In this document: positions 1,315 to 60,938 of the stretch, in pieces | Numbering within the stretch: position 1 is the stretch's first letter | Layout: each line of letters starts with the position of its first letter | Origin: Plantactinospora soyae | GTDB lineage: Bacteria > Actinomycetota > Actinomycetes > Mycobacteriales > Micromonosporaceae | Direction: 5' to 3' | DNA: 64,000 nucleotides | Assembly: GCF_014874095.1 (NCBI RefSeq) | Contig: NZ_JADBEB010000001.1 | Location: forward strand, 9,052,001-9,116,000 | The notes under the pieces: model-generated | Seen by the model: only the letters and a program-made list of their open reading frames with translations | Database searches by the model: none | What the model was told of the DNA's origin: nothing | Program-made: the position numbers and the translations under genes

Positions 1315-2610
1315 ATGGAATCCGGGAACGGCCAGGACACGCTGCGGGAGCAGGTCGAGACGTACGTCCGGCTGCAGGTCGCCATCGGCGAGCGGCCGTA
1401 CGCCGCGATCGTCGACGGTGCCGTGGAGTACCTCGACGACGTGGAGGACGAGGAAACCGTCGAGGCGCTGGCCCGGGAGGTGGCCGCGGTGGAGTTCGCC
1501 GCGCACGCCACCGCCCAGGCGCAGTGGCCCGAGGTCAGCGATGCCGACCGGCTCACGCTCGCCTTCCGCGCCCTGGACGTGGCCGGGATCGTCGCCCGGG
1601 AGGCGTTCACCTGTTGTCAGAACTGTGGACTGGCCGAAATCGGCGCGGAGGTCGCCGACGGCGAGACGCCCCGGGGGTACGCCTTCTACCACCAGCAGGA
1701 CGCGGAGCACGGCGCCGACGGTGCGAGCCTGCACGTCGCGTACGGGCTCTTCGGGCAGCCGCCCTCGGCCGAGATCGGCGCCGAGGTGGCGGCGGCGCTC
1801 CGCGAGCAGGGGCTGCCGGTCCACTGGACCGGTGACCTCGGCCAACGGATATCCGTGCCGCTGACCTGGTGGCGGCGGCGTACCGGTCGGCTGGCGGCGG
1901 TCCCGCCCACAGTGGACGACGACGTGGAGGTCGAGATCGAACTGCTCGACGCCTGGACCGGGCGGTACGCCCCGACCGACGGTCCGATCGCCGCCACCTG
2001 GCTGACCAGCCTGTACCTGCCCTGGCTGCCGACCGGGACCCGACTGCGGATCAGCCTGGGCGGCACGGCGATCACCGTCCACCGCGACTGGGACGTCCTG
2101 GTGGGGACGTCCGCCGCCGCCGACCGCCCCGAGATCCGGGTGGACCGGCAGGACGGGATGGCACTGGTACGACGCCTTCGGGCCGACCCGGCCAGCACCG
2201 GCCGGCCCGCTCAGGCCAGCGAGCGGGCGGCCCCGGCGGAGCGGACCGGCCCCGGCGGGGAGGCGGGCGCCGCCGGGCGAGCGGGTCTGTTGGAGGTCAC
2301 CTGGCAGCACTCCGCCGGGCACGAGTACCAGGGCGTACCGCTGACCCGCTCGGAGAGCGTCGACGTGCTGCGCCGGATGCCCGTCCGGACCGACGCCTGG
2401 ATGTCCTGTCGGGGCCGGTCCCGCGGCATCGTCCAGGTGCGCTGGGAGGAGCGGCGACTCTGGCTGGAGACGCCGGACCCGGAGGCGTCCGCCTCGTTCG
2501 GCCGGTACGTGACGATCCCGGAGGCGGAACGCATGATCGGCGTACTCGCCACCGAGGACCGGGTCGCCGTGGCGGAGCTGGGCGACCTGGTCAGGAACTC
2601 CTGGGGCTGA
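1315..2610 (+). CDS. DUF6891-like protein of unknown function
   Basis: 431 residues. The N-terminal ~200 residues match the DUF6891 type as I know it: a helical start, then FTCCQNCGLAEIGAE (about residues 99-113), then a GYAFYHQQD segment and a HVAYGLFG strand. The CCxxCG motif could bind metal. The remainder has further alpha/beta segments, an Ala/Gly-rich linker (about 300-325) and a C-terminal domain ending in a helical tail. No catalytic site is recognisable. The ATG at 1315 is preferred over an upstream GTG-frame extension because a -10-like box sits just before it. Its last 20 bases overlap the convergent gene at 2591. Function unknown. Confidence 0.7.
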   Translation: MESGNGQDTLREQVETYVRLQVAIGERPYAAIVDGAVEYLDDVEDEETVEALAREVAAVEFAAHATAQAQWPEVSDADRLTLAFRALDVAGIVAREAFTCCQNCGLAEIGAEVADGETPRGYAFYHQQDAEHGADGASLHVAYGLFGQPPSAEIGAEVAAALREQGLPVHWTGDLGQRISVPLTWWRRRTGRLAAVPPTVDDDVEVEIELLDAWTGRYAPTDGPIAATWLTSLYLPWLPTGTRLRISLGGTAITVHRDWDVLVGTSAAADRPEIRVDRQDGMALVRRLRADPASTGRPAQASERAAPAERTGPGGEAGAAGRAGLLEVTWQHSAGHEYQGVPLTRSESVDVLRRMPVRTDAWMSCRGRSRGIVQVRWEERRLWLETPDPEASASFGRYVTIPEAERMIGVLATEDRVAVAELGDLVRNSWG

Positions 2611-59580: not shown

Positions 59581-59638
59581 GTGTAAGGAAGGGCCCCTTA
59601 TTATCGTTTTCCGTTGTAGAAGGGCCCCTTCCTAACAC
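59581..59638 (+). terminator. Repeat-family hairpin after the molybdopterin gene (copy 2)
   Basis: Arms gtgtaaggaagggcccctt (59581-59599) and aagggccccttcctaacac (59620-59638) pair in 17 of 19 positions around a 20-base loop that contains tatcgttttcc. It starts 14 bases after the stop. It matches the hairpin after dnaE1 in stem and loop and has the same orientation relative to its gene. Confidence 0.8.
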
Positions 59639-59746
59639 CCTGGCCCGAGACGGCGCCGCGCGTTGGCCTAGTGCGGGCGCGGCTCGGCGACCTTGCGCCA
59701 GCCCCAGGCGGCGTAAGGCGTACGCGTTTCCGCTCTGACGGTCCCC

Positions 59747-60055
59747 TCAGAGGGGGTACCCGAGGGTTGCGAAGTTGTCGCACGCCACCCTGTGCTCGGC
59801 TTCGTTGATCCAGAACGAGCAGAGCACCATCGTGAACGACGCCCGCTGACCGACGGCGGTGCCTCGGATCCGTACCGACCACAGGTCTGGGAATCCGGGC
59901 TCCCGCTGGGCACCCTCGTACGGGTCCTCCATCCGGGTCAGGATCCACTCAGCGACAACGAACCGCAGGTCCGGCGATGGATTGTCGCGATCGGCCCAGG
60001 CTTCGAAGCGGTCTTCGAAGTCCGCCAACTGCCACAATCCGCGCCCGTCAGGCAC
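59747..60055 (-). CDS. Putative toxin partner of the Panacea antitoxin
   Basis: 102 residues, no named family. The N terminus reads PDGRGLWQLADFEDRFEAWADRD (positions about 2-24). A helix with LRFVVAEWILTRMEDPYEG follows, then FPDLWSVRIRGTAV and ASFTMVLCSFWINEAEHRVACDNFATLGYPL (positions about 55-102). This could be a small alpha/beta RelE/ParE-like fold, but no catalytic residues are clear. It starts at GTG 60055, overlapping the Panacea gene by 8 bases (GTGCCTGA), so both are co-translated. The adjacency to a Panacea gene, not the sequence, suggests toxicity. Confidence 0.6.
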   Translation of the reverse strand: MPDGRGLWQLADFEDRFEAWADRDNPSPDLRFVVAEWILTRMEDPYEGAQREPGFPDLWSVRIRGTAVGQRASFTMVLCSFWINEAEHRVACDNFATLGYPL

Positions 60056-60617
60056 TCCGCCCCAGTTGTGCCCGCAGCTCCGCTACCTGGGCGCGCAACC
60101 GCTCCGGGTCGTCGGGTCGCGGGTTCGGGTTGCGGCGCGCTTCGGCGCCCTTGAGGATCGCCCGCACCTCGGCGGCGTCGACGGGTGTCTCATCGTCGTC
60201 GTCCAGCGCGCCGGTGGTGGTGAAGTAGTCCCGTAGCCAGTCCAGCTCGATCCGGGCTGACTCGCCTGGCATCCGGGCGGTATTGGCGTACTGCCACGGG
60301 GTTTCGGAGTGGGTGAGGTGTTCCAGGTCGGTGCCGGTGAGCTTGCCGTAGCGGGAGACGACGTAGCCGATGGTGTTGAGTTCGGCTTCACCGAGTCGCT
60401 GGGGACCTGGGATGTCACCGCTGCGTTCGGCTCGCCAGAGGGTGCCGACGACCGGACCCATGTCCCAGGCCGAGATCGCCTCACCAAACAGAGGTGTGCC
60501 GAATGCGGCCAGATGGTGCCCTTGGCAGTAGTAGAGCAGTTTGTGCAGCTTCTTTGTCGGTAGACCGGGAAGCCGGGCGCGGAGCGCTGCGGCTACGTCG
60601 TGGGCTGACACGGTCAT
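60048..60617 (-). CDS. Panacea (DUF4065/SocA-like) antitoxin domain protein
   Basis: 189 residues. The Panacea domain runs from ~5 to ~130, with PTKKLHKLLYYCQGHHLAAFGTPLFGEAISAWDMGPVVGTLW (positions about 20-61). This is the family signature (KLxKLLYYxQG ... PLFxExIxAWxxGPVV). The C-terminal ~50 residues are charged and coiled (DDPERLRAQVAELRAQLG). The domain is known as an antitoxin that pairs with unrelated toxins and as a proteolysis adaptor. ATG 60617 is 6 bases after a TAGGCT box. The overlapping downstream gene is the presumed toxin. Confidence 0.85.
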   Translation of the reverse strand: MTVSAHDVAAALRARLPGLPTKKLHKLLYYCQGHHLAAFGTPLFGEAISAWDMGPVVGTLWRAERSGDIPGPQRLGEAELNTIGYVVSRYGKLTGTDLEHLTHSETPWQYANTARMPGESARIELDWLRDYFTTTGALDDDDETPVDAAEVRAILKGAEARRNPNPRPDDPERLRAQVAELRAQLGRSA

Positions 60618-60938
60618 TGCGCCAGCCTACTTTCCTGATCTCTGCCGTGGGGGGCGCCACGCGTCGCGGGTCGCTCGCACATGCGTACGAGAGTGCCAGG
60701 TACGTCCGACAAGGTTGGGCGAACGCCTGCGACATCCGTCGCCGGCCCGGTTGTGCATCAGGGAGGTTGGTGTGACGATTGGTAAACCTTCATTACAGTT
60801 ACTCGGGATATCGCCCTTAAGTTCGCAAGTTACTCACTTCGCTTAAGTCGGATATTGACGCAAGATCCTTTGAGTCATAGCGTGTCATCGATCGCCGCGC
60901 CCCACCCCCACCGCGCGGCGACGAGCGAGAGGACGCGC
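60618..60938. promoter_or_regulatory. Divergent intergenic region with repeat pair
   Basis: 321 bases between the Panacea and ThuA-lectin genes; no gene seen. -10 box TAGGCT for the antitoxin (minus strand, 60629-60624). A low-GC part (60770-60865) contains two CTTAAGT copies (60818 and 60842 region) flanking aagttcgcaagttactcacttcg, an imperfect inverted repeat. It could bind a regulator of the secreted gene. Confidence 0.5.

Follow-up and report, generated by a model that had tools for sequence, protein, structure and literature searches.

A Panacea-domain antitoxin and its predicted RelE/ParE-fold partner form a probable toxin-antitoxin operon in Plantactinospora soyae

A 2022 survey of proteins encoded beside Panacea-domain antitoxins found that 938 of 1,268 Panacea-partner sequences (41 clusters) had no CDD domain match, although for 30 clusters HHpred gave hints of relatives (PMC8832971). 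ParE and MqsR, the latter a RelE homologue according to a cited title, have already been reported as Panacea partners (PMC8832971, PMC10440598). Here a Panacea gene and the gene for its 102-amino-acid (aa) partner are described from a 64,000-nucleotide (nt) stretch of Plantactinospora soyae DNA (NZ_JADBEB010000001.1, positions 9,052,001 to 9,116,000), referred to as the window, in a genome assembled as one contig of 9.7 Mb. The two genes likely constitute a PanAT-like toxin-antitoxin operon (type II), with a RelE/ParE-fold toxin and a Panacea antitoxin. An initial annotation had proposed a toxin-antitoxin pair, and this reading was well supported comparatively by linkage of the two genes, by swapping of partners and by antitoxin-only copies.

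Both open reading frames lie on the minus strand at the positions first given for them and overlap by 8 nt (60048..60055) at the antitoxin stop and toxin start, where translational coupling is likely. The Panacea gene (60048..60617) has an ATG start and encodes 189 aa. The product matched Pfam SocA_Panacea (E 1.1e-16, 62.2 bits against a cut-off of 25.7), in agreement with its first assignment, with the domain proper at residues 24-109 (60291..60548, minus strand), and it also matched PHROG 1281 (E 7.3e-26). The partner gene (59747..60055, minus strand) has a GTG start and contains both peptides originally quoted for it, LWQLADFEDRF and WSVRIRG. Its product was 85-86% identical to the counterpart in a congener (G006), with nonsynonymous (dN) and synonymous (dS) divergences of 0.063 and 0.725, and on these grounds the partner is regarded as a real gene; the signal was weaker against the more distant G003 (dN 0.275, dS 0.578). 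The corresponding values for the Panacea gene against G006 were 0.085 and 0.563. Over 25 loci, a tally that includes the window and two loci with a broken partner and for which start codons were picked by us, the gene junction was an 8-nt overlap in fourteen, an 11-nt overlap in five, a 4-nt overlap in one and a gap of 1-16 nt in five.

Relatives of the partner were detected in 4 of 7 genomes of the genus and 27 of 354 genomes of the family, the window's genome being counted in both. A sample of 396 genomes from the phylum gave three with a match, including the window's own; one of the other two (L034) contained an internal stop opposite a 620-aa open frame and was discarded as a chance match, and a candidate in the window's own genome (L002, E 0.7) was also dismissed. 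No relative was found by tblastn among 50,697 phage and 72,556 plasmid records, and peptide-pattern scans of viral contigs, sensitive to close relatives only, gave none either. Among the 28 family places besides the window, a Panacea gene was directly upstream of the partner in 25, including one from a fragmented genome where Panacea was in two frames (L011) and two where the partner gene was frameshifted (L018) or interrupted (L020). The remaining places were one at a contig edge, where a Panacea-like C-terminal tail with the overlap was still present (L019), one with a different small protein in the antitoxin slot (L009) and a broken remnant without Panacea (L005).

Starting from the antitoxin, the gene following Panacea in 93 family loci belonged to this partner family in 47, encoded a Fic protein in 19 and was neither in 27. 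The two-gene neighbourhood of PanAT systems was thus found from either side. The count of 47 includes training rows, as the family model had absorbed 19 of the counted loci after four rounds; with the first model at E < 0.01, a partner was present in 16 of the 67 loci that remain when the first 26 are set aside. Five of the 19 Fic-linked loci had gone into the Fic model that counts them, and Pfam confirmed the Fic assignment at two loci. In a tree of 91 of the 93 Panacea rows, leaving out L215 and L216, the 47 partner-linked loci fell with L180 and L181 to the same side of a branch supported at 100/99. The 27 loci with neither partner include two groups, one with L195, L196, L200, L201, L204 and L211 and the other with L197, L198, L202, L203 and L209.

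Exchange was also seen on the antitoxin side. At L009 the intact toxin-family member overlaps a small protein encoded before it, which resembles ribbon-helix-helix (RHH) antitoxins by pattern, with no Pfam match, and two relatives of this small protein lie just before PemK matches in other genomes (G349 contig 60 and G006 contig 2). At L033 the start of a toxin relative (1489-1797, plus strand) is overlapped by a 60-aa non-Panacea open reading frame (1323-1505, plus strand), which may be a further antitoxin type for the RelE/ParE fold. A row of three genes, encoding a tail-bearing RHH-like antitoxin, a Panacea protein and a distant toxin-family member, was observed on contig 4 of G103 (L174/L166).

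Antitoxin-only copies were present at several loci. In G073 the Panacea gene of L179 recurs at L180, 99% identical over 477 nt and with no toxin after it, which we read as a recent orphan antitoxin. L039 retained Panacea and a C-terminal piece of the toxin (29 residues aligned), and no toxin was detected behind Panacea at L181. Among the 29 family places, window included, no intact partner gene lacked an antitoxin-like neighbour, and this asymmetry is the one predicted for a real toxin. These observations bear on a quite improbable alternative in which Panacea and its small partner form a complex with a sensory or regulatory role, or serve as an accessory of another system. In its favour, eight PanT candidates showed no toxicity in E. 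coli, a result that the authors do not take to prove that toxicity is lacking (PMC8832971). Such a role would leave unaccounted for the Fic proteins in the same slot, the exchange of the antitoxin, the antitoxin-only copies with no lone intact partner among the 29 places and the RelE-like predicted fold described below.

The antitoxin carries a C-terminal tail (residues 147-185, 60063..60179, minus strand) in common with the RHH-like antitoxin of L009. When the latter was compared with 300 family genomes, it matched the Panacea C-terminal tails of the window (E 6.7e-5) and of G006 (E 4.2e-6). Conversely, a profile of 21 Panacea tails run against 3739 frames from 67 loci recovered the L009 antitoxin (E 4e-8) and the RHH-like protein of G103 (0.007), and no Fic-paired Panacea protein was among the best 40 rows. 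A tail on all Panacea partners of the toxin was considered and rejected, the short ones being without it. In the NetFlax study the exchangeable elements Phd-C, ZBD and PAD1 are described as linear neutralisation elements, with Phd-C acting on a Fic/Doc toxin (PMC10440598). Given these elements and the tail common to Panacea and the L009 antitoxin, the tail is proposed as a further linear neutralising element specific for the 102-aa toxin family.

The partner had no match in the Pfam, NCBIfam, PHROGs or PADLOC profiles, and its best PDB sequence match was at E 0.87. When 25 family rows were searched singly against Pfam, four families appeared, each in a single row (best E 0.087), and were judged to be chance. 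The initial annotation had stated that the partner matches no toxin fold with confidence, a view now superseded, as structure prediction followed by structural alignment pointed to the RelE/ParE fold: the top of the list was uniformly RelE/ParE, RelE proteins were the closest structures and the predicted model has the BECR fold. Comparison of the partner family with ParE by hhalign gave 52% probability, above 600 shuffles. The comparison profiles for Gp49 and PemK gave no match, the Gp49 test being weak as the rows for both profiles began at the match start. A bridging relative of 102 aa came from a different family of the phylum (L033), and one further weak bridge match was found among 27 genomes of the class of L033. 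The family alignment behind this work (A1) left out L002, L005, L011, L018, L020 and L031 as broken, frameshifted, cut or doubtful, and L001, for which the window stands. Modelling predicts that the 102-aa protein is a toxin with the RelE/ParE (BECR) fold, from a family unseen by the profile libraries searched.

Several observations weigh against a PanAT operon with a RelE/ParE-fold toxin and a tail-bearing antitoxin. The structural Z score was within the range that the tool calls typical of unmatched models, the single-sequence AlphaFold2 model of the partner was one helix and a sheet, and the shorter, more distant Panacea partners have no tail. The Foldseek check suggested at the outset gave nothing significant for the model against PDB or a viral library. 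A different fold for the toxin of the pair (cystatin- or NTF2-like, for example), together with an entirely new mechanism, is an alternative in which the RelE-like model would be an artefact of a shallow alignment. The single-sequence model and the lack of matches in Foldseek and the profile libraries would fit such a toxin, but the better model agrees with the helical spacing of the conserved L30, V34, W37 and R41, and with the uniform top of the list and the L033 bridge this makes a different fold unlikely.

For a toxin of RelE/ParE fold, conserved residues bear on its target. In an alignment of 45 members, from which L039 and L183 were left out for length, the columns conserved in at least 60% of rows were W8, L10, F13, W20, P26, V34, W37, R41, P45, G48, E52, P64, V77, C79, Y81, E85, V90 and C92 in addition to the start. 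R41 (27 of 45) was the only basic residue at this level. In the closer 25 rows, Arg occurred at column 41 in 22, at column 51 in 18 and at column 50 in 15. The catalytic residues of RelE served for comparison. Judged from the sequence alignments, neither the conserved basic catalytic set of RelE nor its C-terminal R/Y motif is present, and the C-terminal HRxxVY of the ParE-family alignment was absent from the 45 aligned members. We lean slightly, with low confidence, towards a protein target such as gyrase over mRNA cleavage, because no RelE-like basic catalytic set is conserved. A ribosome-dependent mRNA nuclease like RelE, not a protein-binding toxin like ParE, is possible as the less favoured form of the same operon: RelE proteins are the closest structures, mRNA cleavage is reported for 11 of the 13 BECR families in Pfam (PMC11980606) and arginines are frequent in the closer rows. 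The single well-conserved basic residue and the missing HRxxVY run counter to this, and Gerdes notes that the catalytic residues of the BECR RNases are missing from ParE, a gyrase inhibitor (PMC11980606).

A TAGGCT box (60624..60629, minus strand) occupies positions -12 to -7 relative to the Panacea ATG. The pattern TANNNT was present at -14 to -5 before the Panacea start in all 26 loci (window included, some being near-copies), with T at -12 in 77%, A at -11 in 81% and T at -7 in 85%. The background was 2.5% in shuffled upstream sequence, and ahead of the ATGs of the window it was 0.2% (n=403) on one strand and 0.8% (n=374) on the other. The leaderless promoter first suggested for the pair is thus borne out as far as sequence can tell, and is well supported by the conservation of its -10 box. 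Transcription would start at or beside the Panacea ATG and the antitoxin would as a result be made first, with the toxin translated by coupling over the 8-nt overlap. We infer that the Panacea protein neutralises a toxic partner through direct binding, that the tail (approximately residues 147-185) is probably the main toxin-binding element, like the tails of RelB or ParD, and that growth would stop if the antitoxin were lost and the toxin thereby released.

The genes to the left of the pair, which we take to be xanthine-dehydrogenase-like, matched in all seven genus genomes, the window's own included. The pair sits elsewhere in G006 and G003, and in G002 the left and right neighbours do not enclose it; from the constant left neighbours and the differing location of the pair in congeners, we conclude that it has moved, as toxin-antitoxin pairs do. 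No convincing repeats that could be mobile-element ends were found around it. Directly 3' of the toxin gene lies a palindromic repeat of approximately 58 bp (59581..59640), which resembles a terminator or repetitive extragenic palindromic element and forms a strong hairpin (-32.4 kcal/mol, z -6.35). The repeat is dispersed, with at least 40 genomic copies that are 89-100% identical, from a search in which 40 of 200 candidates were scored, and more copies are present in congeners.

This case suggests that a Panacea partner with no domain match can be a toxin of RelE/ParE fold that sequence comparison no longer recognises. The antitoxin tail appears swappable and may hold the toxin in check; its occurrence on Panacea and RHH-like antitoxins provides a natural test of a scaffold change with the toxin kept, and a comparison of these two naturally occurring antitoxins bears on the question of the Panacea domain's own role. 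A more specific proposal, which we hold tentatively at somewhat under even chances, is a further BECR family beyond the 13 of Pfam, without the RelE catalytic set and with no gyrase role shown, whose portable tail has moved between Panacea and RHH scaffolds with the toxin unchanged. Literature searches listed the two PanA papers and, going by the entries listed, nothing on this toxin family, which may sit as an unnamed cluster in the PanA datasets (PMC8832971, PMC10440598), and the word Panacea is absent from the available text of Gerdes 2025 (PMC11980606).

Like the described PanAT systems, the locus has a Panacea antitoxin gene beside a small partner, and the partners swap toxin folds including Fic/Doc (PMC8832971, PMC10440598). 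It differs in a toxin family with no profile match and in a tail, common to an RHH-like antitoxin, that is not among the elements Phd-C, ZBD and PAD1 named in the available part of that work (PMC10440598). The predicted topology, structural matches and size agree with RelE/ParE toxins (BECR, 13 Pfam families), and the antitoxin-first order agrees with ParE (PMC11980606), whereas a Pfam match, the conserved basic catalytic set and the C-terminal HRxxVY are lacking. SocA of the type VI system SocAB also carries a Panacea domain, but the present antitoxin scored 35.7 bits with the NCBIfam SocA equivalog, below its cut-off of 190. As in RelBE and ParDE, L009 pairs a toxin-family member with an RHH-like antitoxin, the tail of which would be its toxin-binding part, whereas the usual scaffold in the present family is Panacea and not RHH.
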